DNA of 42,357 bases, taken from positions 1-42,357 of the forward strand of contig JAHIWF010000242.1 in NCBI GenBank assembly GCA_018815555.1. Reading direction: 5' to 3'. The DNA is from Spirochaetota bacterium (GTDB taxonomy: Bacteria > Spirochaetota > Spirochaetia > Treponematales > UBA12059). Each line of letters opens with the position of its first letter. Within the stretch, counting starts at the first letter, position 1. A program made the translations under genes and the position numbers. Below the pieces are notes generated by a model. That model did no database searches, was not told the origin of the DNA, and saw only the letters and a list, made by a program, of their open reading frames with translations. Positions 9,450-41,374 of this stretch are shown here, one piece after another.

Positions 9450-9622
9450 GTATTTTTGGCAAAGTCATCCAATATCATAAATGCAGTTACCGGATAATGT
9501 TCAGAAATAGTTAATTATCGCTTTAACAAAAAAGTTTTAAACACAAACATGAATAGAGGTTTTATACTACCGCTATCACCGGGTCTTGTGACCTCAGGTA
9601 TCCCTGTCTTGGATGGTAACTT

Positions 9623-10270
9623 ATGCTTAAAGTTGTGCTAAGTGTTATGGTACTCATTGGATTTCTATCACCTGTTTTCTCCCAGAACAGTCTGCCCGAT
9701 TACAACTTTGCCTCCGGAACCTGGAATTTTATCGGATCTCGACTGCATCAGGAAGATGAAAAAGCCGGATTGGCCAAACTCAACATCCATGTTCCGCAGA
9801 ACAGTAAGATGATCTATTCTTTTAATGCCCGTTATGAATCTGGTGCTGAAGATGGGCATGCCGGCTTTGGGGTGCATCTTTTTGCAGACACCGTACATCC
9901 TAAGGCCTCATGGGGCAATGGCGAATCATGGTTGCTTTGGCTGAACTATGATGAGAAGCCAGTATCACCGGATATTCCCGCCGGATTCAGTGCCCAGGTA
10001 TATCGCAGCCGATCGCACTCACGTATGGATCTGGTTCAAACTATTGACCTAAATCAATTTGGGAACCTAATTACCTCCGAGATACTTGCCCAGCCAATAC
10101 CAATACGGATCTGGCTGGATGGCGAAACTGGGGAAGTAAGGATCTACGATCCAATTGATCAATCCTATTACTATTATTTCTATCTTGAAAGCGATGGCTT
10201 GCCGCTCCGGGGCGATTGGATTGCGCTCAGAACTAATGGCGTGCATTTATCGTTCGGACTTGATAGCTAA
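9623..10270 (+). CDS. Hypothetical secreted protein
   Basis: Signal peptide MLKVVLSVMVLIGFLSPVFSQ; ORF free of stops with protein-like composition. Confidence 0.7.
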   Translation: MLKVVLSVMVLIGFLSPVFSQNSLPDYNFASGTWNFIGSRLHQEDEKAGLAKLNIHVPQNSKMIYSFNARYESGAEDGHAGFGVHLFADTVHPKASWGNGESWLLWLNYDEKPVSPDIPAGFSAQVYRSRSHSRMDLVQTIDLNQFGNLITSEILAQPIPIRIWLDGETGEVRIYDPIDQSYYYYFYLESDGLPLRGDWIALRTNGVHLSFGLDS

Positions 10271-10291
10271 ACCTCACACTGGGAATGGGGC

Positions 10292-10348
10292 AGGAACGAA
10301 TGAAGTTATCCAGCCAGACGGTGGCGGGTTCGACTTTAATTCGTTCCT
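10292..10348. other. 10-bp inverted repeat between convergent genes (possible terminator or structured 3' UTR)
   Basis: AGGAACGAAT (10292-10301) and ATTCGTTCCT (10339-10348) are perfect reverse complements flanking 37 nt. Confidence 0.4.
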
Positions 10349-10372
10349 TATTTGAAATGACCTATATATTCT

Positions 10373-11857
10373 TTAGCCAAATGCAACATCGAAATCCCGA
10401 CACAAGTGCTGTACAGCAGTACGGGCGGTATTTACCGCCGAAGGCAAGCCGCCCGGAGGACTTATTCTTTGCCCGGCAAAATAGACATTTTCAATACTTC
10501 TAACCTTACAAGGATACATGCCCATTTTACTGCCAACTGTACTAATGCCCATCCATGATCCTTTGTATGAATGAATATAGCGTTCATACGTTAATGGGGT
10601 GGCAACATCCCAGACCTCAATCTGCCCTTTGAGATGTGGAAAGTGCTGGGTTAAAACCGCTATAAAATCTTGTGCCAGTTGCTCTTTAGTTTGCTTATAG
10701 GTACCTGCAAGTTCTCGATTCTTCCAGAAATCATAAGAATCACCGCCAATAATGCTGGTGATTGCTGTTCCCTTACCAGGGGCATAGCCGCTTTCAGCTG
10801 AATAGAGATGATAGTTAATGATATTAAACTGGCAATCTCCCAGCTTCAATGGTGTACCAGCAATAAAAACTCCACTTTTCGGCTCATTACATAAATCAGC
10901 TTTGGTGCCGACACAAAGAAAGGTACAGGACTTCGGCACGAGTGTATTTCGCATTTGTAAAACCCAACGGTCACTTAAGGGTTTTTCGAATAGATCCTGA
11001 GTAGCAACAGCGGCATCCTGGGTTATAATAACAGCATCGGCATCAACTTGCCTGTCATTCACTTCCAACCCAACTGCCCGGCCCTCTTTTACAACAATTT
11101 TTGCCACTTTATGTTTATACTCAATTACACCCCCGAGCGACTGATATTTTGCTGCCATGCGAGCTGCCATAGCCAGTGAGCCGCCATCCGGGAAAGCTCC
11201 ATCGCCATTCATCAAGGTTGCCAGAGTAAAAACTGTTGCGGTAGCTGCGTATTCATCGCCGGTTATGCTTCTGAGCAAAAGTCTGATGGCAGGATTTTTA
11301 AAACGCCTGGCATAATCTTTTGAACTGATTTTCGCATAGTACCCGATACGAATAATAGCAGGCAGTAACGCGACAAATTTAAGCAGGTTGAATTTTTCAA
11401 ATACTATTGGCTTCCGAAGTTTTAATCCTTTCAAGTCCTTAATCGGCATGGAGAATTTGGAAAAATCGCTAAGATCTGAACATAAACGCTTTATTTCTTT
11501 ATCATCTTCCGGTGCTATAGAAATCAAGTGTTGCTGCCACCTTGCCAGATTCCTGTAAAGGCAGACGATTTGCCCTTCGCACTCGACCGTCAAAAATGGA
11601 TCCACACTGTGGAACTGTACCTGATCATTAATTGCGCCTACGTCTCGCCACAATTGGTGGTATGAACTCTTAGGTGACGATCCGGTAAGCCAGTGCATGG
11701 CCCCCTCAAAGATGTACCCCTTTCGTTTCCAGCTAGTGCATGCACCACCTGGCATAGTGTGGCTTTCATAAATAGTGGTGTCAAATCCGCAATTCTGTGC
11801 GTATACTCCTGCGGCTAACCCGGCTATTCCCCCACCAACGATTGCTATTTTCTTCAT
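10373..11857 (-). CDS. FAD-dependent oxidoreductase, phytoene desaturase/CrtI-like
   Basis: MKKIAIVGGGIAGLAAGVYAQNCGFDTTIYESHTMPGGACTSWKRKGYIFEGAMHWLTG dinucleotide-binding motif; C-terminal NVYFAGQRISPPGGLPSAVNTARTA. Confidence 0.93.
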   Translation of the reverse strand: MKKIAIVGGGIAGLAAGVYAQNCGFDTTIYESHTMPGGACTSWKRKGYIFEGAMHWLTGSSPKSSYHQLWRDVGAINDQVQFHSVDPFLTVECEGQIVCLYRNLARWQQHLISIAPEDDKEIKRLCSDLSDFSKFSMPIKDLKGLKLRKPIVFEKFNLLKFVALLPAIIRIGYYAKISSKDYARRFKNPAIRLLLRSITGDEYAATATVFTLATLMNGDGAFPDGGSLAMAARMAAKYQSLGGVIEYKHKVAKIVVKEGRAVGLEVNDRQVDADAVIITQDAAVATQDLFEKPLSDRWVLQMRNTLVPKSCTFLCVGTKADLCNEPKSGVFIAGTPLKLGDCQFNIINYHLYSAESGYAPGKGTAITSIIGGDSYDFWKNRELAGTYKQTKEQLAQDFIAVLTQHFPHLKGQIEVWDVATPLTYERYIHSYKGSWMGISTVGSKMGMYPCKVRSIENVYFAGQRISPPGGLPSAVNTARTAVQHLCRDFDVAFG

Positions 11858-11918
11858 TTCTTTTTCACTCCCTGTACGTTTTCACATGGCTATAATTATC
11901 AAGTTTTTTTGTGTAGTG

Positions 11919-12575
11919 CTATTGTCGGACTTCCAGACTCGTTAGCTCAGTAATTGTTAGTGGAGTACCTGGACCACCCTCCACAGATTCGTAGCGCACA
12001 TAACGGCCATCAGACTTGCGGAACCAATAATTAGCCTGCCAGAAGAGACTTCTAATTCCGGTAAGTGTAACCTTTAGCTGTGAGGATTCAAAACTTAAGC
12101 CGTAAGCTTCAATCTTTTTATCTCCCATCCTTGAAACTTCCATCTCGTAGGCGACCATTTCATCAAGCTTGACCACCCAATATTTCATGGAACGCAGACT
12201 ACCTGCATTAAAGTGCTCCAGTGCCAGTTCCTGCGCCTGATACCATGGATGATTATTGATTCTCAATTGTTTTGCTGTTACTTGGTTTTCAAACTTTCCA
12301 GAAATGATAATAATGTCCCCTACTCTTTCAAAATTGATATCGGTTCCTACTTCTTTGTTACATAAATGCCACACCAAAGTTGAATATGAGTCATTGAGCT
12401 CAATTTTTGATGTCTGGTTATAAGTAACATTAAAACCATACGAAGTATTCTGTATTACCATTGTATTGATACTTGTTCCTGCACCAGTTATTGACCGGTA
12501 GTTACGGATTTCCTGTACATGGCCATAAGTGCAGATAATGAATATGAACAGGCAGACAAAAAACGGATATTTCAT
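11919..12575 (-). CDS. Hypothetical secreted protein
   Basis: N-terminal signal peptide MKYPFFVCLFIFIICTYGHV; 218 aa; compact spacing with neighbours. Confidence 0.7.
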   Translation of the reverse strand: MKYPFFVCLFIFIICTYGHVQEIRNYRSITGAGTSINTMVIQNTSYGFNVTYNQTSKIELNDSYSTLVWHLCNKEVGTDINFERVGDIIIISGKFENQVTAKQLRINNHPWYQAQELALEHFNAGSLRSMKYWVVKLDEMVAYEMEVSRMGDKKIEAYGLSFESSQLKVTLTGIRSLFWQANYWFRKSDGRYVRYESVEGGPGTPLTITELTSLEVRQ

Positions 12576-26997: not shown

Positions 26998-27762
26998 CTA
27001 CCGCAATCTATTCAGCTCCTGCATGGCCCGGCTGGCTGCCAGCGGCAGATAAATATCGGTAATACTGTCGGTAAAGGCACTCGGTTCTGGGTTTATCTCG
27101 ATTATTTTACCACCGCGGGCATGCACACGTTCAGGAAGCGAGGCCGCCGGATATACCTGCCCGGTAGAGCCGATAATCAGACACAAGTCGGCCTGCGCGG
27201 CGGCCTCCATCGACAAGCGCCAGGCGGCCGGCGGGATGCCCTCGCCAAAGAAAACAAAATCCGGCTTTAAGACCGCTCCGCAAGTACAGTAGGGCGGCAG
27301 TTCGCGCAAAACATCAGCAGTGGCATTGCAGCGGCAGCCGCAAGCGGGGCACAGCAGCTCGGTGCTTGCACCATGGAATTCTGCCAGCTTGCGGCTACCG
27401 GCTTTACGATGCAGCCCGTCGATGTTCTGGGTTACTACACAGGAAAGCCAGCCTTTCTGTTCCCACTCGGCCAACACTCTATGCGCCGTGTTCGGCTGCG
27501 GCTCGGTATCCAATGAATAAAATATCGCCCGTATAGTCGGCCAGGCCAGCTCCGGATGACGGCGAAAAAAAGCTATTTCCAGATGCCGTTCGTCATACTG
27601 GCCCCACAAGCCTCCGGCTCCGCGAAAAGCCGGAATGCCCGATTCTACCGAAATTCCTGCACCGGTAAAGGCCATTACATAGCAGGAGTTGCGCAATAAA
27701 GCCGCCGCTTCGGATAAAAGCGCGGCAGTTCCGGCCGGTGATCCGGCCTGTGCGGATGTCAT
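26998..27762 (-). CDS. NAD-dependent protein deacylase, sirtuin family
   Basis: AFTGAGISVESGIPAFRG, TQNIDGLHRKAGS, EFHGAS catalytic His, CPACGCRC/CTCGAVLKPDFVFFGE Zn region, GSTGQVYPAA. Start refined to MTSAQAG, overlapping the upstream stop as ATGA. Confidence 0.95.
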   Translation of the reverse strand: MTSAQAGSPAGTAALLSEAAALLRNSCYVMAFTGAGISVESGIPAFRGAGGLWGQYDERHLEIAFFRRHPELAWPTIRAIFYSLDTEPQPNTAHRVLAEWEQKGWLSCVVTQNIDGLHRKAGSRKLAEFHGASTELLCPACGCRCNATADVLRELPPYCTCGAVLKPDFVFFGEGIPPAAWRLSMEAAAQADLCLIIGSTGQVYPAASLPERVHARGGKIIEINPEPSAFTDSITDIYLPLAASRAMQELNRLR

Positions 27763-29633
27763 TTTGTCAGATACCGTTGAACCATATCCCACTCATCCGA
27801 AGGCGGTTCGATCAGGAAATCCCGGCAGCGCTCACGGAATATCAGGCACACCGGATCATCAGGACGGGTCTCTAAAATGCGATCAAGATAGCCGGCAGCG
27901 GTCTGCCAGTTACGCAGGCGATACATGGCAAGAGCCTTTTTATACAGATCATACTCCTGCTCATCCAAACAATGTGGGCCTTCATCTTCCAGCAGGTATA
28001 TCAGGGTCGGCTCTTCTTTACCCTTTACTATAACCTGCTCGATTTCCCTAAACCGCACACAGGAAACTTCATGTTTGTTTGCTTCCAGTTCGCGCACCAC
28101 GCTTTCGGATACAATAATCCTTGATTGATACTGCTTGGTAAGGCCTTCCAGGCGTGAGGCAAGATTAACTGTATCGCCGATTACCGTATAATCGAATTTG
28201 GTGGATGACCCGACAGTACCCACGATGGCGTCGCCCATATGCACACCGATACCGATATCCAGACCTTCAGGCGGCAGGATAATGCCGGCAGTATCGAAAG
28301 TTTCCAGCGCCCGCGACATGGCAATGGCGGTCTCAACCGCGCGCCGGGCGTTGTCCGGCCAGCTTTTTGGAGCGCCAAATACGGCCAGAATTGCATCGCC
28401 GATAAATTTGTCGACCATGCCTCCATGCTCGATAATAATATCACACATGGTTTCAAAATATTTGTTAAGGAACGACACCACAGATTCCGGAGTATTGGTT
28501 TCTGACAGAGTCGTAAACGCCCGTATGTCGCTGAATACAATGGTTAGTTCGCGCTTCTCGCCGGCCAGCATGGATGCATGTGTTTTGCGTGCCACCAATT
28601 CGTTAATTATTTCCTGTGGCACAAACTTGGAAAACACATTGCGTATTTCCCGCTCCATCACCGAAAGATTTTTGAATAGCATAGCATTGTGAACCACCAC
28701 GCCGGCATCACGGATAAAAGCATTAATATTCTCGACCACCGAATCTGTAAAATAATTATTGCGCACGTGTCCTAGATGCAAGGTGCCTATAAGCTCGTCT
28801 CCCGACCCGTAAATCGGACAGCTGTAATATGAACACAGCCTATTGTCCTGCAGACGCAACTTGGTCCAGTCCTGTCGGTGCTCGATATTAAAAATATGGG
28901 CATCAACCGGTTTTATCGAACTCAACTGAAAAAAGCTGAAAAAATCCTGCAGGGATACAGAAATAAAATCATCGGCCATTTCTTTATTTATACAATCCAG
29001 TGGATAGATATAAGGCGAAGCTTCGCGCCCAGTTGCCAGGATTATTGCGGCTATCTGCCTCTCGGTGGCAAGATCAATCAACTCCAGCACCCTCAGAATC
29101 GTTCCAGCCAATGAAGAAATGCTTCTTGCAGCATCACCCAGCTGGTTGATGATGGTGGACTGAAACAATTCCTTGTCCAGAATATCGGACAGTGTTTCAG
29201 CAATAAACTCCCGGCTCATGGCCTTGGCATCCTCTGCGATCAATTCTTTGTCCAGCGCCTGATGATCTATCCACTTGCCTACCGTCTCGACCAAAGGCTG
29301 AATGTTATTAAAATCTTTTATCACAAAAGCGCAGGCACCGGAATTATATGACCAGAAACGGTCCTTGTCCTCAGAATTTGCCGTATGCATAATTATCGGA
29401 ATATCGCGTACACCGCGCCGGGTTTTCAGCAGCCGGCTGGCCTGGTAACCCTTCAGCAACGGCATGTCAATATCCATGATAATCAAATCCGGAATACTCC
29501 GGTAACAAAATTCGATGGCCTCGTAACCGTCCTTAGCCCTTATTACCCGATAGCCGGCTTCCGAAAGACTGTCTCCGATTATTTCGGCAACAAGATCCGA
29601 GTCATCCGCCAGCAGTATTGTTCCCTGTTTCAT
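27759..29633 (-). CDS. Response regulator (REC)-GAF-like-class III adenylate cyclase
   Basis: REC: ILLADDSD...LIIMDIDMP...MHTANS...FVIKD. Cyclase: RELTIVFSDIRAFTTLSE, GGMVDKFIGDAILAVFGAP, KFDYTVIGDTVNLASRLEGL, with metal-binding Asp, K/D purine pair, and N/R transition-state residues present. Confidence 0.93.
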   Translation of the reverse strand: MKQGTILLADDSDLVAEIIGDSLSEAGYRVIRAKDGYEAIEFCYRSIPDLIIMDIDMPLLKGYQASRLLKTRRGVRDIPIIMHTANSEDKDRFWSYNSGACAFVIKDFNNIQPLVETVGKWIDHQALDKELIAEDAKAMSREFIAETLSDILDKELFQSTIINQLGDAARSISSLAGTILRVLELIDLATERQIAAIILATGREASPYIYPLDCINKEMADDFISVSLQDFFSFFQLSSIKPVDAHIFNIEHRQDWTKLRLQDNRLCSYYSCPIYGSGDELIGTLHLGHVRNNYFTDSVVENINAFIRDAGVVVHNAMLFKNLSVMEREIRNVFSKFVPQEIINELVARKTHASMLAGEKRELTIVFSDIRAFTTLSETNTPESVVSFLNKYFETMCDIIIEHGGMVDKFIGDAILAVFGAPKSWPDNARRAVETAIAMSRALETFDTAGIILPPEGLDIGIGVHMGDAIVGTVGSSTKFDYTVIGDTVNLASRLEGLTKQYQSRIIVSESVVRELEANKHEVSCVRFREIEQVIVKGKEEPTLIYLLEDEGPHCLDEQEYDLYKKALAMYRLRNWQTAAGYLDRILETRPDDPVCLIFRERCRDFLIEPPSDEWDMVQRYLTK

Positions 29634-31945
29634 GCCCGACCCTCTCTCTCCAACAAAAGCTGCCGGACAGCCTGGATCAAATTATCCTGGTCAAAAGTCG
29701 ATTTCAGAATATAGCGCGACGCCCCAAGTAGGTCAGCTTTCGCGCGTATCTCCGGATCATCGACGGTTGTAACCAAGATTACCGGCAACTGGCTCAAAGC
29801 CTCGTCGTTTTTAATATTTTCCAGCAATTGCAATCCATCCATACGCGGCATGTTCAGATCCGATACAATGAGGTCCATGTGCATGGCATGTATTTTCTCG
29901 AGCGCATCGACACCGTCCATCGCACCTATCACATTATAGCCCTCGAGTGAAAGCATGGAAATCTCGATTTCCCTTGTACTGATCGAGTCGTCAACAACCA
30001 GGACCGTCGGTTTCTCCAGATGGGCCGATGCCGAAAAACGTTTGCGTGTATCCATAAAGCGTACAGAACGCGTGCGGTCCAGCACCGCACCCATATTCAA
30101 GATCGGAATAATATCAAAGGCGATATCAAAAACCACACCCAGCACCAGCGGGTTTTTGCGCAATGATGCCGGCAGATTCTGGTACACCAAGGAGTCATAG
30201 CCAAGAATCCGGTCAACCCGCAGCCCGGCCAGTTGCCCGGTGCTGTGTATCAGCAGCACCGGTATCTTTCCGCTGCGTTCCGAAGGTCGGTCGTTCTGCA
30301 GACACACACCAAGATCATGCAGGGCAATATTCACACCATCCAGGGTAAACATTTCTTTCTGCCGCACATTAAAAATTTCCAGATCGTCCAGCAGAAGGGT
30401 TCTGGCGATCGATGAAGCCGGTACATAATATGTATTGCCGGCGGACTCTACAAACATACCATCCATCGTCGAGGCGGAAACCGGCAGCAGCAGGCTAAAG
30501 ACACAACCCTGGCCGGAAACCGATTCAAGAAGTATCTGGCCGCGGGCAGCTTCAATATTGCTTTTTACAATATCCAGGCCGACCCCCCGGCCGGACAAGG
30601 TAGTACTTGCCTTTCGGGTAGAGAAACCGGGCTGGTATAAATAGCGTATCAGTTCGCTATCCGCCAGAACCTTAAACTCGTCCTGGTTCTCCGGCCATAA
30701 CTGCAGACAGCGCTCGCGTATAGCTGCATAGTCCAGTCCGCGCCCGTCATCCTGCACCACCACCAGAATGCGGTTACCCTCTGTTTTGCACTGTATGCTT
30801 ATATTGCCATGGGCAGGCTTTCCGGCTTTAATCCGTTGCTCGGCCGGCTCAATTCCATGATCAACCGCATTGCGCACAAGATGAATCAGCGGATCAGACA
30901 GTTTATTCAGCACCGCCCGGTCCAGGCGCACCGCATCTCCGGAAATATGCAAGCGCACATCTTTGCCCAGCGAGCTTGCCGCATCTTCTACCATACGCGG
31001 GAAACGCTCCAGAATCATCGACAGCGGCAACATGCGCATGCTTACCACCGATTCACGTAATTCCTGTGTACCATGTTCAATTTCAAAAAGCTGGTCAGAA
31101 TATTGACTCTTGTAAGCGCGCAGCATCCGTGATACCGAAAGCAATTCTTTGCGCATTTTTTTTACGTCGTCCAGATTCCGATATGCGGCAGTCAGCGCCG
31201 CTTCCATGTTGTCCAGCTCAGCGATCCCTGAACGCAAGCGCATCTGCCGTATGGTCATGGTATTGACCAGGCTGATTGAACGGTCGATAGTAGAGCCATC
31301 CACCCGGATGCTGCTTTCGAACGAACTATGCTCCTGTGTCGCGGCGACGGCTTCGGCCGGTTTGGCCTGGCTGTCGTCTTCGGTTCCGGCTGGCTTGTTG
31401 CCGAAAGTTCCGGAAGGCGAATCGAGCGTGGCGGTAAGCCCAGTCAAGGCGACTCGATTCCCGACAGGCTCCTTGATATCCTGGGCTGCGTCTGCACCAC
31501 GTTTGGGATGTTCATCTGCAGCCGGGGCGAGTTCCAATGCTGAAGGGTCATAGGCCTCATTGGAACAGATTTTCTCACAGTCCGCCAGAAACTGGTCAAG
31601 CTTGGCAATCTGTTCAGCCTGACCCTGTTCAATCCGGTCAGCAGTTTTGCGCAGTTGATCGAGCGCCATAAAAAAGAACCGGGCCAGTTTGGCATCCACC
31701 AAATAGCGCCCCTCGCGCACGCCTTTAAACACTGTCTCCAAACCATGCACCAGCTTTTCTATTTCCACAAACTGCAGCATTCGGGCGGAACCTTTTATGG
31801 TGTGCAGAGTACGCAGCAAAAGGGTAAGGGTGTCTGTATTTTCCGGATCATTTTTTAACAGTATAATCTGGTTCTCCGCCACGGTCAGATTTTCGCGGAA
31901 CTCTCCAAGAAACAGAGCAAGAAATTTTTCCTTGGAAACAGCCAT
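29630..31945 (-). CDS. cheA: CheA-type chemotaxis histidine kinase with C-terminal REC domain
   Basis: Hpt TLHTIKGSARMLQ; HATPase RNAVDHGIEP, DDGRGLD, GRGVGLDIVKS; CheW-like P5; C-terminal REC VLVVDDSIST...LIVSDLNMPRMDGL...ILKST. Start ambiguous among 31966/31948/31945. Confidence 0.94.
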   Translation of the reverse strand: MAVSKEKFLALFLGEFRENLTVAENQIILLKNDPENTDTLTLLLRTLHTIKGSARMLQFVEIEKLVHGLETVFKGVREGRYLVDAKLARFFFMALDQLRKTADRIEQGQAEQIAKLDQFLADCEKICSNEAYDPSALELAPAADEHPKRGADAAQDIKEPVGNRVALTGLTATLDSPSGTFGNKPAGTEDDSQAKPAEAVAATQEHSSFESSIRVDGSTIDRSISLVNTMTIRQMRLRSGIAELDNMEAALTAAYRNLDDVKKMRKELLSVSRMLRAYKSQYSDQLFEIEHGTQELRESVVSMRMLPLSMILERFPRMVEDAASSLGKDVRLHISGDAVRLDRAVLNKLSDPLIHLVRNAVDHGIEPAEQRIKAGKPAHGNISIQCKTEGNRILVVVQDDGRGLDYAAIRERCLQLWPENQDEFKVLADSELIRYLYQPGFSTRKASTTLSGRGVGLDIVKSNIEAARGQILLESVSGQGCVFSLLLPVSASTMDGMFVESAGNTYYVPASSIARTLLLDDLEIFNVRQKEMFTLDGVNIALHDLGVCLQNDRPSERSGKIPVLLIHSTGQLAGLRVDRILGYDSLVYQNLPASLRKNPLVLGVVFDIAFDIIPILNMGAVLDRTRSVRFMDTRKRFSASAHLEKPTVLVVDDSISTREIEISMLSLEGYNVIGAMDGVDALEKIHAMHMDLIVSDLNMPRMDGLQLLENIKNDEALSQLPVILVTTVDDPEIRAKADLLGASRYILKSTFDQDNLIQAVRQLLLEREGRA

Positions 31946-31969
31946 CATCCCTCCAGTTTCAATCAATAA

Positions 31970-33487
31970 TCAAAGAGCCAGTTTTTCCACCATTCGATCA
32001 ACCATATGGCGGTAATATTCCATATCAAAACCATCGAGCAGGGCCAGATACTGTTCGGAGCTCTTGCCTGCAATCAGCATTTTGCGACACTCCTGCAGTA
32101 ATTCTCCGGCACGCTCAGGAGCTCGCTGGTGGTATTCCAGCGCAAGATAGAAAGAAGCCGGCCAGAAACCACCCTCATACAGCCGCGCAGACTCCCATTG
32201 TTCCATTGCTTCCAGAGATCTTCCCTGATGCTTCAGCAGCAGCCCGCGCAAAAAAGTGCTGACAAAATTCTCGCTAGCGAAGGTTTCAAAACTTTCAAGC
32301 AACTGCTCCGCCCTGCTAAAGCGGTTCTCCCTAATTGCCTTAACAATATCGACCAGTGACGCGGCCACCTGCCCGGCAGCCGTAGACTCGCAATCAGTAA
32401 CGGCGGCAGTTGCCGGCTGACTGGCGCCATCCACTGCGAGTAGCAGTAATGCTGCCTGCTCCAGCCCTGCCCGGATATCGTTCCGGCTGACAATTTGGCC
32501 TTTCTGTCGCCGCTGCCGGCCGGACCTTTGGATCAGCACCTCAGCCGAGGCTGCAGCAGCCGAGCCGGTGGCTATATTGCGCTTTTCAGACCTAAGTCGC
32601 ATTGGCGGGTCACCAGCTGACTTAGCTGAGGCCGGCTTCCTTGACGCGGCGGCCGGTCCGGCCTCCTCACGCATGAAAAAAAAGGTACCTTCGCGCTCCA
32701 TGATCTTCAAGCCCGGATGACGCACTGTCGGTATCTCCGGGGAAGCCAGAAACAGAAAACCGCCCGGTTTTAACACCGAAACCAGCCTGTCCACTATACG
32801 GCTTTTATGCTCAGGTTTCATGTACAATAAAGTATTACGAAAAAAAATCAGATCTACGGCCGCCTCGGGCAGCCTTCCGCTCAGGATATTCAGCTGCCTA
32901 ATATCTATCGAAGCCAGAATTTCCGGATGGCACAACCATTGGTCTCCCGAAAAACCGCCTATTGTATCCAGCAAGGGATGCCACTGCCGGCCGTCAGTTC
33001 GAAACGAGCCCATACCGAAGTGACCCTGCCGAAAGAAATCAAGCGCTTTGCGGTTAATGTCGGTAGCCAGTAGCTGAAGGTCAGAACCGCAGCCAAGACT
33101 CTGCTGCACATGAACAGCCATGGCCATCAGCGACAAGGCTTCCTCACCGCTGGCACAAGTTACTGACCAAAGCTTCGCCGGCCCGCCATGGCGCAACACC
33201 TGCGGCAGTACATAATGTAAAAGTGCGGAAAAATGCTTCTCATCGCGAAAAAAATAGGTCTCGCCTATCATGATATCATCCAGAAACCGGGCTTTTTCTT
33301 CACTATTTGTATGGAAAATTTTGGCATAGTCACCAGATGCCAACCCCAGCTGGCTGCAATGCTCTCTGGCCGCCTTTATGATAGTGTCATGATGCACTTC
33401 CGGGAAACACAATCCGGTTTCCAGTTCTATACTGCGTACCAGAGCTTCCAGATCATTGTCCGGCAATAGGACAGCCGCTTCACTCAT
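31970..33487 (-). CDS. cheR: CheR-type methyltransferase with C-terminal extension/TPR-like tail
   Basis: ETYFFRDEKHFSALL, LWSVTCASGEEALSLMAM, LLATDINRKALDFFRQGHFG, DLIFFRNTLLYM; C-terminal helical repeats RFSRAEQLLESFETFASENFVSTFLRGLLLKHQGRSLEAMEQWE. Confidence 0.93.
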   Translation of the reverse strand: MSEAAVLLPDNDLEALVRSIELETGLCFPEVHHDTIIKAAREHCSQLGLASGDYAKIFHTNSEEKARFLDDIMIGETYFFRDEKHFSALLHYVLPQVLRHGGPAKLWSVTCASGEEALSLMAMAVHVQQSLGCGSDLQLLATDINRKALDFFRQGHFGMGSFRTDGRQWHPLLDTIGGFSGDQWLCHPEILASIDIRQLNILSGRLPEAAVDLIFFRNTLLYMKPEHKSRIVDRLVSVLKPGGFLFLASPEIPTVRHPGLKIMEREGTFFFMREEAGPAAASRKPASAKSAGDPPMRLRSEKRNIATGSAAAASAEVLIQRSGRQRRQKGQIVSRNDIRAGLEQAALLLLAVDGASQPATAAVTDCESTAAGQVAASLVDIVKAIRENRFSRAEQLLESFETFASENFVSTFLRGLLLKHQGRSLEAMEQWESARLYEGGFWPASFYLALEYHQRAPERAGELLQECRKMLIAGKSSEQYLALLDGFDMEYYRHMVDRMVEKLAL

Positions 33488-34668
33488 ACCGACAATCCCG
33501 TCGCTGCCCGTACATATTTGCTGATCAGCGGCAAAGGCACAATATAACTTGCGGCGTCACAATCAACCGCGGCTTTAGGCATACCGTATATCAGGCTGGT
33601 AGCCTCATCTTGCACCAGGGTACAGCCTCCCTGTTTTTTTATGGCAAGACAACCGGCAGCGCCATCAGTGCCCATGCCGGTCATTAATATGGCCAACACT
33701 CGGGAACCATAACTTTCACAGGCAGAGTTAAACAGAACATCCACCGAAGGCTTTTGGTTAAGTACTTTAGGACCATCATCAAGCCGCAGTCGGCCATATT
33801 CGCAGCGTAAATGAATATCAGTAGGCGCTATATACACAACACCAGCCTTGGGCACCTCGCCATCCATGACCAACCGTACTAGCTGCCGGCTTTCTTCGGA
33901 CAACCATTCGGCGTAGCCTCGGTCAAAACCGGTTTCTATATGCTGGACTACAAGCAGTGGAATTGGCAAAGGCGCTCCAAGATCAGTCAAAAAACGCAGC
34001 ACGGCCTGCGGGCCGCCAGTAGACGCGCCAAGCACCGCCATGCCCGGCCGCAGCAACGACAAGTCAGGCGGAATATTTATATCACCTGCATCCACTATTA
34101 CCCGAATCGACTGGTGGTTCTGTCTTGGTACTGGCTGTGGCTGGCCGGCCACTCCGGCACCAGGACCGGCCAACGGCCGGGATGCAACGTCAGTCTGCCG
34201 GCTGGTCGAGGGCGGCGGCTGGTGGGCTGCGCTGGCCACACAATCATCTGTCGACTGTCGATAGGAAAAGAATATGCGGCCTTTATAGCGAGCGCTGATA
34301 CTGGCCAATAGATCTACAAATTTTCGGATATATTCAGGCTTGTTTATATCGTTAAAATCCGGTTTGCGTAAAAAATCGGCAGCTCCGCGTTCCAGTGCCC
34401 GAAAAGGTAATTCTGGATCGGCATTGTTGCTGAACATAAGCACCGGAATCGACGACGACCTGGTAATCCGGCAGGTTGCTTCCAGGCCATTCATCACCGG
34501 CATGTCCATGTCCATGATAACAATATCTGGCTGCAGCTCCAGTACCCGGCTAAGCGCAAGCTGGCCATTGGCAGCTTCGCCAACTACTTCAAAGCCTTTC
34601 TGTTGGGCTAGAATTTCCTTGACTATATTACGGATAACTACAGAATCATCGGCAATGAATACTCTCAT
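33484..34668 (-). CDS. cheB: CheB-type protein-glutamate methylesterase/response regulator
   Basis: REC MRVFIADDSVVIRNIVKEIL...DIVIMDMDMPVMNGLE; methylesterase AVLGASTGGPQAVLRFL, VVQHIETGFDRGYAEWL, ILMTGMGTDGAAGCLAIKKQGG. Start refined behind GAGGAG. Confidence 0.95.
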   Translation of the reverse strand: MRVFIADDSVVIRNIVKEILAQQKGFEVVGEAANGQLALSRVLELQPDIVIMDMDMPVMNGLEATCRITRSSSIPVLMFSNNADPELPFRALERGAADFLRKPDFNDINKPEYIRKFVDLLASISARYKGRIFFSYRQSTDDCVASAAHQPPPSTSRQTDVASRPLAGPGAGVAGQPQPVPRQNHQSIRVIVDAGDINIPPDLSLLRPGMAVLGASTGGPQAVLRFLTDLGAPLPIPLLVVQHIETGFDRGYAEWLSEESRQLVRLVMDGEVPKAGVVYIAPTDIHLRCEYGRLRLDDGPKVLNQKPSVDVLFNSACESYGSRVLAILMTGMGTDGAAGCLAIKKQGGCTLVQDEATSLIYGMPKAAVDCDAASYIVPLPLISKYVRAATGLSV

Positions 34669-34687
34669 GCCCGCTCCTCTTTCATCG

Positions 34688-35155
34688 TCAAGCTGTTTTT
34701 TCTCTGTCGCGCCCGGTAGCAGTGCTGCCAGAACTAGAGACATCCAGCAGGTACTGCAGCCGATCAGCTGTACTAAAACGCACAGCGACCAGCCCCAACA
34801 ATCCGAGCCGCTTACGCAAACCGGCCGGCAGAAGTTTCAGTTCATGCAAGGGAAAAGTCAGCAGCTCAAAGCTGCGATATGTAGCCAAAACCGCCTCCTC
34901 AGTCCGGCGCTCACGAACAACAAAAAAAGTCGGCAGACCGGAAGTCTCCGCTTCCACAGCAGGAAGCAAATGGCTAACAAAATTGTCTAGCCATACCAGT
35001 CGGGTTTCCCGTCCGCGCAAAAGGCAAGCGGGGCATCCATATTCGGGCAAGTCTTTTAATTCACTTCCCGAAATAAGCTCGCCAAAATCACCGGCTGGCA
35101 GCAGTATGTCAAAGCGGCCATAATCCAGCAAAAAAACCTCAGGAGTGTCAGCCAA
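34688..35155 (-). CDS. Divergent CheW-like protein
   Basis: TTG start overlapping the upstream cheW stop with GGAG upstream; TPEVFLLDYGRFDILLPAGDFGELI...LRGRETRLVWLDNFV resembles a reduced CheW domain. Confidence 0.65.
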   Translation of the reverse strand: MADTPEVFLLDYGRFDILLPAGDFGELISGSELKDLPEYGCPACLLRGRETRLVWLDNFVSHLLPAVEAETSGLPTFFVVRERRTEEAVLATYRSFELLTFPLHELKLLPAGLRKRLGLLGLVAVRFSTADRLQYLLDVSSSGSTATGRDREKTA

Positions 35156-35648
35156 GATCCTGCTCCAGTTGAGCCAGCAGCTGCGGAATCGAAAGAACCA
35201 GCACCCGTTGACCTCCATGATCAAACATGGCCAGGCAGAAACGGCCATCAGCATCAGCAGCCGCAAAAGTTGAGACAGAGCTTGCCGGAAGATCAACAAT
35301 TTCGTTAACCTCGGTACAGCCGATTGCCACATTGTCCTGCTCCAGTTTCAACACTAAAAACATTGCAGCAGGCTGACGTTCGTTTTCAAACAGTACCCGT
35401 AGGTCAAACGCGGTATACGGCTGCCCGTGGCAGTTAACCAGGCCGGGAATATAGGGCGGACAAGAGGGAAGCGGATATACTTCCAGACCGGCGATTATCT
35501 CGTGCACAGCTTCGGGCGGTAGTGCAAATAAAAGATCACCGACTGAAAAAACAAAAAAACGGCTTTTCAGCTCTTCAGTGTCAGCTAAACCGATCTCCTC
35601 TAATCCTTCGCTGGCCGAAAGCGCTTCCTTTATCTCACTACTTTTCAT
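35148..35648 (-). CDS. cheW: CheW adaptor protein
   Basis: RFFVFSVGDLLFALPPEAVHEIIAGLEVYPLPSCPPYIPGLVNCHGQPYTAFDLRVLF is canonical CheW; ATG overlaps the mcp stop region. Confidence 0.92.
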   Translation of the reverse strand: MKSSEIKEALSASEGLEEIGLADTEELKSRFFVFSVGDLLFALPPEAVHEIIAGLEVYPLPSCPPYIPGLVNCHGQPYTAFDLRVLFENERQPAAMFLVLKLEQDNVAIGCTEVNEIVDLPASSVSTFAAADADGRFCLAMFDHGGQRVLVLSIPQLLAQLEQDLG

Positions 35649-37398
35649 TATCCACCCTTTCCTGCACAACCGGGGAAAATTCAGCCGCCTGCAATTTCAG
35701 ACTACTGGCCATAGAGCCCAAAGACTCAGCCGTCTGGGCGGTCTGCTGCTGGGTAAGAACCAGATTGTCGATACCACGTGATATTTCTTTCATCGTCACC
35801 AGTATCTGCTCAAACGCTGCCGCCTGCTGACGTATTGAGAACTCAATATTTTCCGAAGAACTGGCCGAGATATCAGCTGAATCAAGAATGTCCGAGAAAA
35901 CACTGTGCAACTGTTCCGATAGTTCATGCCCCTGCCGAATGCGCTCGGTACCCTCTTCGGAAACTACGATCAGGTTGTTTGCCGCCTTCTGGATTTCAGT
36001 AATGCGGCTCTGAATCTCGCTGGTAGACTGATTGGTGGAATCGGCCAGCCGCTTTATCTCGCCTGCGACAATACGAAAATTCCTTCCGGCCTCTCCAGCG
36101 GTGGAGGCTTCCAGGGCAGCGTTAAAAGCTATGATCCTGGTCTGCTCAACAATAGTATTGATGATGTCTACAATGTCCCAGATGGCGCGGATCTTGTCGG
36201 CCAGCGAACGTATGCCGGCTATTGTATCCATGTTTTTTTTACGAATCTCCGACATTTTCTGACTGGTATCCTGTACCAGCGTGGTTCCATCCTCGACATG
36301 CTCCTTGGTCTTCATAGCTATCCGCGTGACCTCGGAAATGGAACGACCTATCGACTGCGTGATATGATTGGAATCTTCCATTGTAGAAACCACTTCCTTT
36401 ACCGCCGCTGCCTGCATGTTTGAGGTGGAGCTGACTTCTTTGGTAGTGGTGGACAAATCCTGTACAGAGTTGGAAAGCATCAAGGTTGACCCGCTGATCT
36501 CGGTCAGCAGCTTGCGAAATTTATCGCTAAAGCGGTTAAACAGGGCCGCCAGCTCCCCGACTTCGTCAAAAGCCAGCAGTTGCACTTGGTCACCGCTTGC
36601 CGCGGTACTGCTGTCCACCAGACGCCCAAGATGCTGCTTCAGGAAAACCAGCTGATGCTTATACTCATAGCGGGAAGCAAAGCCGAGACCCACCAGCGCC
36701 AGCATAAAATAGCTTAACCAGAGCGCAAGGGGCAATAGCAGGGCATAGCTGCCGCCGGCCGAACCAATCAGATACCAGGCAATATAGACGCAATGAACAG
36801 CCATCAAAAAGGCAGCGGAAAAAACAATGAACAAGTTTTTGTTGCGCATAAAATGGTCGGTTTCGCCGCTGCGCATATCCACAATGCGCATTTCTTGCTT
36901 TATCGGCAGAAGATGAATGTTGGCGATTACACAATTGAACAGCGACCCGACAAACCCGACTGAAAGCTTAAGCAGGATACTGAACACATAGGGCAGACCG
37001 CTCTCCGGATTCCATCCGCGCAGGATAAAATACACCGTAGTGCCCAGAATCCAGGTGCCGCTCTGAATAAGCACGATACGCCAGGGTAATTTAATGGCGG
37101 CCAGGCGGGCTTCCGCATAACTTTCACCGTTATCCAGATAGCGAACCATTGGCCGCAAGGTTATGAACATCATCACCAACTGAAAAATATAGGCACCTAT
37201 AAACACACCCAAAACGGTAGGCTTAAAAAAGAAGGGCAGACGCTCAAGCATCGCCAAGCCAAGCGAGTCAAAACGCTGATTAAAAAAACCGTTAAATATC
37301 TCACTGGAATACAGAGCAATAAACTGGATCAGAAATGATGAAAGCGCAATTTTCAGCGCTACCTTTTTTTCCAGCGGCGTAAGCCGAAGTTGATTCAT
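35638..37398 (-). CDS. Methyl-accepting chemotaxis protein with a ~6-TM integral-membrane N-terminus
   Basis: ~6 hydrophobic helices, then MCP signalling domain INTIVEQTRIIAFNAALEASTAGEAGRNFRIVAGEIKRLADST; start MNQLRLTP behind GGAGGAG. Confidence 0.93.
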   Translation of the reverse strand: MNQLRLTPLEKKVALKIALSSFLIQFIALYSSEIFNGFFNQRFDSLGLAMLERLPFFFKPTVLGVFIGAYIFQLVMMFITLRPMVRYLDNGESYAEARLAAIKLPWRIVLIQSGTWILGTTVYFILRGWNPESGLPYVFSILLKLSVGFVGSLFNCVIANIHLLPIKQEMRIVDMRSGETDHFMRNKNLFIVFSAAFLMAVHCVYIAWYLIGSAGGSYALLLPLALWLSYFMLALVGLGFASRYEYKHQLVFLKQHLGRLVDSSTAASGDQVQLLAFDEVGELAALFNRFSDKFRKLLTEISGSTLMLSNSVQDLSTTTKEVSSTSNMQAAAVKEVVSTMEDSNHITQSIGRSISEVTRIAMKTKEHVEDGTTLVQDTSQKMSEIRKKNMDTIAGIRSLADKIRAIWDIVDIINTIVEQTRIIAFNAALEASTAGEAGRNFRIVAGEIKRLADSTNQSTSEIQSRITEIQKAANNLIVVSEEGTERIRQGHELSEQLHSVFSDILDSADISASSSENIEFSIRQQAAAFEQILVTMKEISRGIDNLVLTQQQTAQTAESLGSMASSLKLQAAEFSPVVQERVDNEK

Positions 37399-37422
37399 GA
37401 GCTCCTCCACAGGGCTGCTTTA

Positions 37423-37450
37423 AGTATAGCACAGCGGCCCGCCAGTACAA
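37423..37450 (-). promoter_or_regulatory. Candidate sigma70-type promoter for the minus-strand chemosensory operon
   Basis: On the minus strand TTGTAC-N16-TATACT, with TG one base upstream of the -10 (extended -10 TGCTATACT), ~25 bp before the start region. Confidence 0.45.
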
Positions 37451-37482
37451 GCTATACTTGACAGATACAAGTCTATCCTTGA
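37447..37482. promoter_or_regulatory. Tandem imperfect palindromes in the divergent mcp promoter
   Basis: ACAAGCTATACTTGA (37447-37461) and ACAAGTCTATCCTTGA (37467-37482); each is CAAG-N5/6-CTTG; starts 20 bp apart. Confidence 0.45.
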
Positions 37483-37505
37483 GTATATAGGCAGACGAGG
37501 TGATA

Positions 37506-39269
37506 ATGCAAAACAAAAATACCGAAGCAGCACTTATCCGGCGTTTTTACCTGACGGAACTGTTCGCCAACCTGGTGGGAGCGCCGCTTGCTACCATATA
37601 CGGGGGCTCGCTGATAAATTTTGCCGAAGTACCGGCCGGCCGTTTTATGATCGGACTGGCACTGGTAATCCTGCTCAATCAGCTTCTGCTGGCCCTGCCC
37701 ATGAATCTGTACCTCGGATCACTCATCCGCAAACATCAAAAGGGCGGGCCGGACTATCCACCGGTACGGGTTTACAATTTTATGGCCAGACTGCCAATGA
37801 TCCAGTCGGCTCTCATTTTCGGCCGCATGCTGCTTTGCATTATCGTTGCAGTTGTCAATGTCGGAGCCTGGTTCGGCAGCAGCCTGCATGTCAGCGCCAC
37901 CATCATCTACGGACTGTATGCGGCCTTTATCACCGGGCTGGTAATCTACTATTTTCTACATACCGCCACCACGGACATCACCGAACGCATAGTTGCCGAA
38001 AATCGCAGCAAAGCTGGTCAGGCTATACCCATCAGCTATTCTGGCAGCCAGAAACGGCTGCGGACCTTTGTCGCTGTACTACCGCTGATGATGCCAAGCC
38101 TGCTTACCAGTACCGGAATCGTGCTCCTAATTTTAGCCATCCAGCAGAGTCCGGCCGACAGCGCCTTTTTTACCGCCCGCATTATTTTCGCCCTCGGCCT
38201 TAACCTGCTAACAGTACCGGCCATACTCATGTACAACCGGCATTTCAGCAAGCGACGGCTGATGGCCATCCAGCAGGCCTTGCTGGATATGGTAGAGCAT
38301 GGCAATACCGGAAGCCTTATTGCCAGCGACCTGCGCGACGACAACAGCCGCACCGCCGCCCTCATGAACGACGCACTGGATATTTTCCGGCTCATGCTGG
38401 ATAAACTCAAAAACACCACCGACAGCCTCTCCACTACCGTCATGCATTTCTCCAGCCAGAACCGCGAAACAGTGGCGGCAACCACCCAACAGGCTTCGGC
38501 CGTCAAGGAAATCGTCTCCACAATGCAGGACTCCAGCAGCATCAGCCGCCAGATTCAGGATCAGGCAATCGCGCTTGCCGGCAATGCCGACGAAAGCCAG
38601 GATCTGGTAGACAGCGGCTTCGGCAAAGTTCAGGACACCATCCAGAAAATGGCCGAAATCCGCGAAGCCAACCAGACCACCCTGCAGGAAATCAGCGAAC
38701 TTACCGAAGAGATCTCGTCAATTGGTGAAATCATCGAACTGATCAACGGCATAGCCAATCAGACTCGTATCATCGCCTTCAATGCCGAGCTGGAAGCGTC
38801 TTCAGCCGGAGCGGCCGGAGCCAGTTTCCGTATTGTGGCCGAAGAAATCCGGCGGCTGGCCAACGGTACGGTGGAATCACTGTCCGGCATCAAAAGCCGC
38901 ATCACCCAGATACAGCACTACTCACAGCGACTGCAGACCTCCTCCGAAGAAGGCACCCTGAAAATCGGCGAAGGTATGAATTTATCACGCGACCTCAACA
39001 CTATATTCATGCAGATACGCGGTTCGGCAGAACATACGGCCAACAATTCAAAGGACATCAGTTCAATCCTGGTAGGGCAGAACCAGGCCTATGAGCAGAT
39101 TTTTGCCACACTCAAGCAGATATCCGAAGGCGCCGAACAGATTCTGTCCGGCACTAAAGATGGCAGTACCGAGACTGCAAAAGTACAGCAGCTTATCGAC
39201 GAGCTCAAAATACTGCTGCAGCGTTTTTCAGAATCGACTGTACACGGCAGCACAGGAGAAGCATCATGA
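37506..39269 (+). CDS. Methyl-accepting chemotaxis protein with ~6-TM N-terminus
   Basis: Multiple TMs; signalling tip INGIANQTRIIAFNAELEASSAGAAGASFRIVAEEIRRLANGT; start ATG behind GAGG. Confidence 0.93.
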   Translation: MQNKNTEAALIRRFYLTELFANLVGAPLATIYGGSLINFAEVPAGRFMIGLALVILLNQLLLALPMNLYLGSLIRKHQKGGPDYPPVRVYNFMARLPMIQSALIFGRMLLCIIVAVVNVGAWFGSSLHVSATIIYGLYAAFITGLVIYYFLHTATTDITERIVAENRSKAGQAIPISYSGSQKRLRTFVAVLPLMMPSLLTSTGIVLLILAIQQSPADSAFFTARIIFALGLNLLTVPAILMYNRHFSKRRLMAIQQALLDMVEHGNTGSLIASDLRDDNSRTAALMNDALDIFRLMLDKLKNTTDSLSTTVMHFSSQNRETVAATTQQASAVKEIVSTMQDSSSISRQIQDQAIALAGNADESQDLVDSGFGKVQDTIQKMAEIREANQTTLQEISELTEEISSIGEIIELINGIANQTRIIAFNAELEASSAGAAGASFRIVAEEIRRLANGTVESLSGIKSRITQIQHYSQRLQTSSEEGTLKIGEGMNLSRDLNTIFMQIRGSAEHTANNSKDISSILVGQNQAYEQIFATLKQISEGAEQILSGTKDGSTETAKVQQLIDELKILLQRFSESTVHGSTGEAS

Positions 39270-41374
39270 ACCCGGCCCAGGCATCGGCTTTACACGGCAA
39301 TACCGGAAGATTATCCCACAGCAGGCTGGCCGCAATACTGATCTGCGCTTTAGGAACCCTTATACTCGTCTCCTGCGGCCCCTCGCTCAAATCCATAAAC
39401 CTTATGGAAACCAGCAGCCAGCAGCTCGACTCCGGGCTTGGAATGCAGACAATGGCCGAAGAGCTCCTTCCGGCAGCGACTACAAAGGACGTTAAGCCGT
39501 ATGAATTTCTTGTTGATTTTGACCTGCAACTAACCCCGACGCTTATTTCCGGCAAGACCGACCTGGCTTTGATAATAGGACCAAGTTCGTATCCCTACCA
39601 GTTGTTTCTGAATGGACGCAAGCTGCATAGCTTTGGAACAAAAGAAGACGCCAACCGTACCAGACTTTTCTCGACCATAATGGTCCAACTCGATCCCCTG
39701 CTGCTGCGTGAACAGAATACCATCATGGTTCAGGCGTACATTCGTAGCGAACGAAATCCCCTGCCGGACCTGGCAATCGCCAGCTCGCAGCAAGCCTCTT
39801 CATATGTATATTGGCGCAATTTTTTTATGACGCAACTGGTAACCGGCGGCTTTGTAATCGGCCTGCTTTTGCTGGTTTATTTTATGTTCATGTATATTGC
39901 CGGCAAGGGCCGCAACAGCGTTTACTTTTGGTTCGCTCTGTTCTGCGGCAGTTTTGCGCTGGCATACGTAAATATTGTATTCAACCATCTGGCGGCGTCT
40001 GATACTCTGCTGACCAAATTCAGCAGAACCGGTTTTTTCCTCTGTGTCAGTTTCTTCACATTTTTTGTAATGGAGACAACCGGGCTTCTGCACCGACGTC
40101 GGATCATAAAGCAGTTCATGCTGGGCCTGGTGGCCATAGCCAGCCTGTTGATCTGGCTGCAGCCTGATTTTAACAGCGCCAACAGTATGTTCCACATTAC
40201 CATGCAGTTCATCATAACACCCAATCTGCTGTTCTGCATCGCACTGATCGTCGCCAGCACCATACGCCGGGGTATCAAGAAAAACCTGGTGCTGATAATC
40301 GGCTTTACCGGCGTTATCATCACCAGCCTCTATGACATGGGCTTTGAAACCGGACAGTTAATGCCCTACGCGTGGATGCTGGTGTACGGCTACCTATGGC
40401 TGGTACTCTGCATTTTCTTCGAGTTGGCAATCAAGCAGGAACTGGTATTCCGCACCTCTCAGGAACAGGCGGAGGCCATCAACAAGCAGAATTCTATCCT
40501 GCAGAATGTATTCGGACTTCTGGATCAGGAATCCAGCCAGCTTACTACCTCCGCCGAGGAAATTGCGGTATCGGCACGTGAGGTAAGTGTCACCGGAAAT
40601 CAGCAAGCAGCCGCCGTGCGCGAAATGGTTGCCACCATGGAGGATGCCGGCAGCCTGCTTAACCAGATTGCCCGCGAATCGGACAATGTAAACGAAGCTA
40701 CCGAGGCAACACTTAGCAAAGCTACTGAAGGCGCAGACAGCGTACGCAATGCCCTCAAGAAGCTGGAGGCCGTAATCAACCATACGGCCGAGGCCATCAA
40801 TCTGATCAACAGCTTCAATGAAGAACTAACGACCATCACCGACATTGTACGCCTTATCGAAGGCATTGCCACTCAGATCAGAATCATCGCTTTCAATGCA
40901 TCTCTGGAAGCAGTGGCGGCCGGAGACGCCGGTAGAAATTTCCGCATCGTGGCAGAAGAAGTAAAACGCCTGGCTGACTCCACCATGAGCAGCGTAAAAA
41001 ACATAAAAACCAAGGTTAACAGCCTTATTGCTTTTTCCGGCAAAGTGGTTAGCGTATCACGCGAAGGATACAGTTCGCTGGAACAAAGCTGGGACATAGC
41101 CTCCGGAATGGGTGATGCCTTCTCCGGAATTGTCGAATCCGCTGAAGCTTCCGCCGGCGCTACCCAGAAGATACACAACTCAATCAATGAAGAAAACATG
41201 GCCTTCAGCCAGATACTCCAGGCCCTCAAGGAAATTTCTTCCGGCGTAAACAGCTTTGTCGAATCGGCTAACTACACCAGCGAAACCACCAAAAAGCTGC
41301 ATGGCATCGCCGGACAGCTGCATGAGCTAATCATAAAATATTCAAGCAATAAGCCTGCCGAAAATGCAAGCTGA
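39266..41374 (+). CDS. 7TMR-DISM-type receptor fused to an MCP signalling domain, with possible lipobox
   Basis: N-terminal ALGTLILVSCGPS lipobox-like; extracytoplasmic beta-rich domain (YQLFLNGRKLHSFG); seven hydrophobic helices; MCP tip IEGIATQIRIIAFNASLEAVAAGDAGRNFRIVAEEVKRLADST; ATGA overlap with the upstream MCP. Confidence 0.88.
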   Translation: MNPAQASALHGNTGRLSHSRLAAILICALGTLILVSCGPSLKSINLMETSSQQLDSGLGMQTMAEELLPAATTKDVKPYEFLVDFDLQLTPTLISGKTDLALIIGPSSYPYQLFLNGRKLHSFGTKEDANRTRLFSTIMVQLDPLLLREQNTIMVQAYIRSERNPLPDLAIASSQQASSYVYWRNFFMTQLVTGGFVIGLLLLVYFMFMYIAGKGRNSVYFWFALFCGSFALAYVNIVFNHLAASDTLLTKFSRTGFFLCVSFFTFFVMETTGLLHRRRIIKQFMLGLVAIASLLIWLQPDFNSANSMFHITMQFIITPNLLFCIALIVASTIRRGIKKNLVLIIGFTGVIITSLYDMGFETGQLMPYAWMLVYGYLWLVLCIFFELAIKQELVFRTSQEQAEAINKQNSILQNVFGLLDQESSQLTTSAEEIAVSAREVSVTGNQQAAAVREMVATMEDAGSLLNQIARESDNVNEATEATLSKATEGADSVRNALKKLEAVINHTAEAINLINSFNEELTTITDIVRLIEGIATQIRIIAFNASLEAVAAGDAGRNFRIVAEEVKRLADSTMSSVKNIKTKVNSLIAFSGKVVSVSREGYSSLEQSWDIASGMGDAFSGIVESAEASAGATQKIHNSINEENMAFSQILQALKEISSGVNSFVESANYTSETTKKLHGIAGQLHELIIKYSSNKPAENAS

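Follow-up and report, generated by a model that had tools for sequence, protein, structure and literature searches.

Organization of the chemosensory locus

The window analyzed here is a 42,357-nt stretch of DNA, contig JAHIWF010000242.1 of a Spirochaetota bacterium (assembly GCA_018815555.1). It encodes a chemosensory system in which the gene for a CheA kinase with its own C-terminal receiver (CheA-REC) directly precedes the gene for a nucleotide cyclase of REC-GAF-class III architecture. Eight minus-strand genes at 26998-37410 lie with their ends overlapping or almost touching, and two chemoreceptor genes diverge from them on the plus strand, an arrangement proposed in the initial annotation and confirmed by Pfam matches and junction coordinates. 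The genes are listed below, with start coordinates deduced from the overlaps.

35638..37410, minus strand: MCP1, membrane chemoreceptor with several N-terminal transmembrane segments (transmembrane estimate); tip EQTRIIAFNAALEA; Pfam MCPsignal 4e-29
35148..35669, minus strand: CheW coupling protein; Pfam CheW 3e-16; probable ATG start at ~35648
~34688..35155, minus strand: second CheW-fold protein (CheWL); starts at a TTG (35155) that overlaps the stop of CheW
33484..34668, minus strand: CheB methylesterase with N-terminal REC; Pfam CheB 2.5e-54, REC 2.5e-24; the open reading frame (ORF) opens at 34743 and the start is probably 34668
31970..33487, minus strand: CheR methyltransferase, extended at the C terminus by a long tail; Pfam CheR 2e-27
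29630..31966, minus strand: CheA-REC hybrid kinase; Pfam Hpt, HATPase_c, CheW, and Response_reg
27759..29633, minus strand: predicted REC-GAF-class IIIb adenylate cyclase with a TPR-like tail; Pfam Response_reg, GAF_2, and Guanylate_cyc
26998..27792, minus strand: Sir2 (CobB-type) deacylase; Pfam SIR2 7e-42, NCBIfam PRK00481.1-3; ATG start probably at 27762
37500..39269, plus strand: MCP2, divergent chemoreceptor; tip NQTRIIAFNAELEA; Pfam MCPsignal 6e-21
39266..41374, plus strand: MCP3, chemoreceptor; tip TQIRIIAFNASLEA; Pfam MCPsignal 3e-22, 7TMR-DISM_7TM 4e-08

Overlaps of 4 nt are found at the CheB/CheR, CheA/cyclase, and cyclase/sirtuin junctions, and the CheW gene overlaps both of its neighbors. 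The divergent position of MCP2 recurs in two other loci (L035 and L038). Pfam identifies MCP, CheW, CheA, CheR, and CheB, the full set of a CheA-MCP chemosensory system. When the CheA receiver was searched against all ORFs of the window, no REC domain turned up beyond those of CheA, CheB, and the cyclase, which agrees with the absence of a stand-alone CheY reported in the initial annotation.

Some parts of the proteins were assigned by structure or by weaker matches. Pfam gives no match for CheWL, and comparison with the CheW profile is weak (52% probability). Its AlphaFold model (mean predicted local distance difference test score of 78) matches CheW or CheA-P5 in all 18 significant PDB matches found by Foldseek, and since the predicted structure matches nothing else, CheWL is probably a CheW-fold protein, as its earlier label of CheW-like implied. 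A CheWL-like gene holds the same slot in orthologous operons. The CheR protein had been labeled CheR-TPR: the CheR part of the label stands, whereas no TPR in the window protein passes Pfam, the tail giving a weak NCBIfam TPR match at 354-465, with TPR_2 found in three of ten orthologs. No P3 dimerization domain was found by Pfam in the window CheA; the H-kinase_dim model, which misses it, detects the three other CheAs of the host, indicating that the window CheA is divergent in this region.

Phylum-wide linkage of CheA-REC and the cyclase

Searches for the REC-GAF-cyclase covered 119 relatives, 393 genomes of the phylum, and a named genome collection, the sampled genomes being mostly metagenome-assembled genomes (MAGs). 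CheA-REC lies directly 5' of the cyclase in approximately 60 spirochaete loci (a count that takes one record twice, L119/L288), usually with a 1-8 nt overlap. Every full-length cyclase with enough upstream sequence has CheA-REC on its 5' side within a cluster of MCP, CheW, CheW-like, CheB, and CheR genes, and no counter-example was found among them. Named carriers include Treponema and MAGs of Spirochaetaceae and Spirochaetales. The distribution is patchy: of 23 sampled genomes from the window's own family, five carry the system, the window included. A gene order repeated in dozens of genomes far exceeds what chance would give, and recurrence across relatives and the phylum rules out an accidental or single-genome linkage. 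The conserved linkage anticipated for the CheA-REC and cyclase genes is thus present, and the proposal that the cyclase is the conserved effector of the system is supported.

A search centered on CheA gave the same result: the CheAs of this clan are cyclase-linked, and the remaining CheA-REC matches belong to Wsp-like systems, other clusters, or the flagellar F2 system. In a quick maximum likelihood tree, 45 cyclase-linked CheAs fall on one side of a branch with SH-aLRT (approximate likelihood-ratio) support of 100, with the Wsp-like and F2 CheAs outside. That tree, the second of two, leaves out the long rows L070, L128, L111, L110, L112, and L067; the earlier tree, likewise quick, includes them and recovers this split with support of 99, L111 being the exception. 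The ATPase-less CheAs described below are absent from both trees. The distances between CheAs and between their cyclases are strongly correlated (Mantel r=0.91 over 44 pairs, with 0 of 2000 permutations as high), and r is 0.90 and 0.93 within two subclades.

The sirtuin, which had been counted as a member of the unit, adjoins the cyclase in the window. No SIR2 gene was found beside the cyclase in the congeneric genome G001 (L035), in L035-L039 as a whole, or in other orthologous loci, and it is rejected as a conserved component. In a termite-treponeme genus (g16; L048, L049, L051, and L052), similar genes follow the cluster, and in L051 these encode a TonB-dependent receptor-like protein, a MotA/ExbB-family protein, and two ExbD proteins.

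Related gene pairs occur outside this clan. In L111 (G025:C26, 7969-13058), an unrelated second CheA lineage is followed by its own REC-cyclase, which implies that the pairing arose more than once. A Myxococcota MAG (L153, 1094-9731) has a REC-cyclase adjoining a REC-less CheA, CheW, MCP, CheR, and CheB, and is apparently an independent case. The REC-cyclases of Magnetococcales and Rhodospirillales (L140, L170, and L171) lie near long hybrid-type proteins, with no CheA of the window's kind, and were set aside.

Catalytic residues of the cyclase

The window cyclase possesses the residues expected of a class IIIb adenylate cyclase: the metal-binding D369 and D413, the K409 and T483 positions, and the N490/R494 pair. 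K409 corresponds to a Lys in both CyaB and CyaC, and the guanylyl cyclase Cya2 has Glu at that position; T483 also aligns with CyaB and CyaC. On the basis of K409 and T483, a guanylate cyclase was rejected. The best single-domain matches found by Foldseek are CyaB (3r5g), Cya2, and CyaC (1wc1). The metal-binding Asp residues, the Asn/Arg pair, and the adenine-specifying Lys409/Thr483 are kept in every complete non-tandem copy, with Ser replacing Thr in some. Since all adenylate-cyclase residues are retained, the predicted product is cyclic AMP (cAMP).

Three loci contain tandem cyclase genes: L070 (G025:C76, 8774-12222), L128 (8372-11430), and L289 (G178, 8815-12236). The first cyclase keeps Asp369 and has lost Asn490/Arg494, and the second has His at position 369 and keeps the Asn/Arg pair. 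Judged from these residues, the two halves complement each other as expected for an obligate heterodimer, like the C1/C2 domains of mammalian adenylate cyclases.

Receptor tips and the separate flagellar system

The chemoreceptors of the cyclase clusters share a distinctive tip, [KRN]-x-I-A-[FL]-N-[AT], in 102 of 103 matches, the single exception being a pattern match that is no real tip. Within the window genome this tip is confined to the three cluster MCPs, and all 29 other MCPs examined have N-[LMI]-L-[AS]-[LM]-N-A. Wsp-like MCPs have NLLAVNA. In Tsr, the tip region is the meeting place of receptors, CheA-P5, and CheW, and a private tip motif is therefore what a separate array would need; we infer that the motif enforces the separation.

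The host assembly (3.66 Mb in 415 contigs) is that of a spirochaete that encodes flagellins. An F2 flagellar set like that of T. denticola (PMC7666581) is found on another contig (L073), and consists of CheA, a CheW-CheR fusion, CheX, and a receiver-only CheY. The window CheA differs from an F2 CheA in possessing a REC domain, and the F2 genes for CheW-CheR, CheX, and CheY are at this separate locus. With a flagellar system elsewhere in the genome that has its own CheX and CheY, the proposal that the window encodes a dedicated, non-flagellar system is upheld. Two further host CheAs on other contigs, L071 (G000:C147) and L072 (G000:C313), are also non-F2; each is preceded by a small protein that appears STAS-like by eye, and L071 carries a receiver-only CheY. 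There are 23 matches to cNMP-binding domains in the host genome, which represent possible cAMP receptors.

Phosphotransfer residues in the lineage of the window

The residues required for phosphotransfer are present in both partners encoded by the window: H55 of the Hpt domain and D703 of the C-terminal REC in CheA (aligned to the E. coli and T. maritima CheAs), and D54, T84, and K106 in the cyclase receiver. The same holds for nearly all non-Treponemataceae loci, a group that takes in termite treponemes and distant families as well as the window and its relatives: the receiver set (acidic site, Asp, Thr/Ser, Lys) is intact in 29 of 32, and the CheA Hpt His and CheA-REC Asp in 32 of 32 each. 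With residues intact on both sides, the window lineage has what direct phosphotransfer from CheA to the cyclase REC requires. The window CheB keeps its REC site and S-H-D triad.

Comparison with known chemosensory systems

The closest functional parallel is the Wsp system of P. aeruginosa (WspA-F/WspR), which likewise has an MCP, two CheWs, an extended CheR, CheB, a CheA with a C-terminal REC, and a multidomain REC-cyclase output. In contrast to Wsp, the window output is a class III Guanylate_cyc domain with no GGDEF, so that predicted cAMP replaces cyclic di-GMP; the cyclase-linked CheAs form a separate clade that excludes the spirochaete Wsp-like CheAs; and the receptor tip and gene order are different. 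To judge from its output domain and CheA clade, the window system would work like Wsp but is not a member of the Wsp group. Wsp-like operons are also found in spirochaetes of the same order (L105-L109), with the genes CheW, CheR, CheW, MCP, CheA-REC, CheB, and REC-GGDEF; in L105, the one of these that was scanned, the output is REC-PAS-GGDEF.

The initial annotation had compared the system with Pil-Chp of P. aeruginosa (ChpA, PilG, and CyaB). Both have a CheA with a C-terminal REC, and both place cAMP synthesis by a class IIIb cyclase under chemosensory control (in the window by prediction), the catalytic domains being related, but the likeness is looser than that to Wsp. In Pil-Chp there are several Hpt/Xpt domains, and stand-alone PilG and PilH, with PilG activating a separate CyaB (PMC12632253), whereas the window has a single Hpt, in CheA, no stand-alone REC or CheY, and a REC on the cyclase itself, and so lacks the features of a Pil-Chp (type IV pilus) system. 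The F2 system of T. denticola (PMC7666581), of a type that this genome also encodes, is different: it drives flagella, its CheA has no REC, its tips are NLLAMNA/NLLALNA, and it has no cyclase.

The catalytic domain is close in sequence and fold (1wc1) to that of the CyaC-type REC-adenylate cyclases of cyanobacteria, also class IIIb. In CyaC, a receiver controls the adenylate cyclase by phosphotransfer, and the kinase is CyaC's own histidine kinase; for the window cyclase, the kinase would be CheA within a receptor array.

The window system likely belongs to the alternative cellular functions (ACF) class of Wuichet and Zhulin. Of the features of that class, a multidomain response regulator and a CheA with a C-terminal REC are present as the REC-cyclase and CheA-REC, and the match for a CheR with TPR is weak. 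The broad kind, a REC-nucleotide cyclase in an ACF-type cluster, was already known, and the idea is not wholly new: Garcia-Fontana et al. 2012 (PMC3447774) name mononucleotidyl cyclases as one kind of output fused to REC in cheR-TPR clusters. There they are one list entry given with no mechanism, and the main text does not include spirochaetes or describe this lineage, its tips, pseudo-receivers, or dead CheAs. No description of a spirochaete chemosensory-cyclase system, its tips, or its pseudo-receiver forms was found in the literature searched, which is weak evidence because subscription papers and supplements were outside its scope.

Coupling of the array to the cyclase

We consider it probable that the window encodes an insulated array that works in the manner of Wsp and has cAMP as its output, through phosphotransfer from CheA to the REC-cyclase. 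The CheA-REC kinase, both CheW-fold couplers, and receptors of a distinct tip type would assemble into an array apart from that of the flagellar F2 system, with adaptation by CheR and CheB. In the window lineage, a receptor signal would lead to CheA autophosphorylation at His55, and the phosphoryl group would pass to Asp54 of the cyclase receiver and also to CheB. The C-terminal REC of CheA would receive it too, either as a sink or as a second acceptor. Phosphorylation of the cyclase REC would alter the REC-GAF-cyclase dimer and thereby change the rate of cAMP synthesis; the sign of this regulation and its function in the cell are, like the transfer itself and cAMP as the product, what we infer.

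Several observations weigh against this account, at least as a general rule. In the Treponemataceae (f3 and named Treponema kin), the receiver set is intact in 0 of 26 loci, with the Lys gone from all 26 and the Asp from 21, and the same loss is seen outside that branch in L050 and L285. The GAF_2 match of the window cyclase is a weak one, at 23.3 bits where Pfam's cut-off is 28.6, although the predicted AlphaFold fold of this stretch is alpha/beta and GAF-like. The CheA's own REC could be the real acceptor, a link other than phosphotransfer could also operate in the window, and in Treponemataceae the coupling can work, or can have become able to work, independently of phosphate. Although degenerate receivers are aligned with some uncertainty, and one residue missing from one MAG may be an artifact, error is an unlikely source of a 26 of 26 pattern. 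Throughout these 26 loci the cyclase residues are intact, Response_reg is still recognized in 22 of 26 members of one alignment (A1), and the CheA-REC Asp is kept in 25, whereas the phospho-His is missing from 11 CheAs (approximately 40%), most of them also without the ATPase, in operons that are otherwise retained; the receiver and catalytic triad of CheB are mostly intact. An operon that persists with its receiver chemistry gone, and in 11 cases with no phospho-His, indicates that phosphotransfer is not the universal coupling; in Treponemataceae, control must be by contact, by the CheA-REC, or by another kinase. The claim that CheA phosphorylates the cyclase REC thus fits the lineage of the window and is not borne out as a general rule. 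These losses, together with the loss of the Hpt His in the tandem-cyclase loci L070 and L128, where Pfam finds HATPase and no Hpt in CheA, are also what would be expected if the system were controlled throughout by contact, with a pseudo-receiver docking on CheA and reading the state of CheA or its phosphorylated REC. We regard this as rather unlikely, because the receiver and kinase of the window are complete and conserved over distant families, which argues that the chemistry is used there, and because receiver loss is concentrated in one clade and looks derived. The f3 CheAs with a resolved placement group into one clade (SH-aLRT 100), which makes a single loss probable, apart from independent losses in L050 and L285. 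On the most likely reading, which residue conservation supports, phosphotransfer would be the ancestral state, retained in the window; for the derived treponemal state, the hypothesis is that the receiver turned into a docking domain.

Two other explanations concern the place of the cyclase itself. The window CheA might mainly phosphorylate a CheY-like regulator encoded elsewhere, with the cyclase as a side branch or an independent gene of the operon; CheA could in principle act in trans, and other CheY-like proteins are encoded in the genome (L071 and L073). We judge this improbable: a CheA, a CheX, and a CheY are already supplied by the F2 cluster for its own use, the receptor tips are private, and CheA and the cyclase show an obligate phylum-wide linkage and matched divergence. 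That the genes merely travel together, with no functional link, is the least credible explanation and can be given almost no weight: a passenger gene can be carried in the run, as the sirtuin at its 3' end illustrates, but the same order and overlap, a single CheA clan, and the lack of a counter-example over some 60 loci have already refuted it for the cyclase, and it stands only for the sirtuin.

Phosphotransfer from CheA to the cyclase remains our preferred explanation for the window and its lineage, and the degenerate kinases bear on the Treponemataceae. CheA homologs of ~500-560 aa in L058, L063, L120, L126, L062, and L292-L296 retain CheW and an intact REC but have lost the ATPase and the Hpt His; in those scanned (L058, L063, and L120), and also in L067, CheW and REC are the only Pfam domains. 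Their domain content suggests CheV-like adaptors derived from a kinase. Genomes G114, G447, and G448 each yielded a single CheA of the cyclase clan, the ATPase-less one, and the one other CheA match is flagellar-type by size or likeness. A tentative proposal, which we think possible though less than even in its chances, is that in Treponemataceae the array controls the cyclase without phosphotransfer: the pseudo-receiver would read CheA by contact, some CheAs would be kinase-dead CheW-REC adaptors, and the array itself would serve as an allosteric scaffold acting directly on the cyclase.

Implications for spirochaete signaling

If this account is correct, spirochaetes, including many gut and termite treponemes, would hold a second array that writes its readout as cAMP, distinct from the array that steers the periplasmic flagella. 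The [KRN]xIAFNA signature could then assign orphan receptors to the cAMP array from sequence alone. The loci would also form a natural series, from an intact kinase with an intact receiver, through an intact kinase with a pseudo-receiver, to a dead kinase with a pseudo-receiver, and with a complementary two-gene cyclase in addition. Such a series could be used to examine whether control of an output by a receptor array depends on phosphotransfer.

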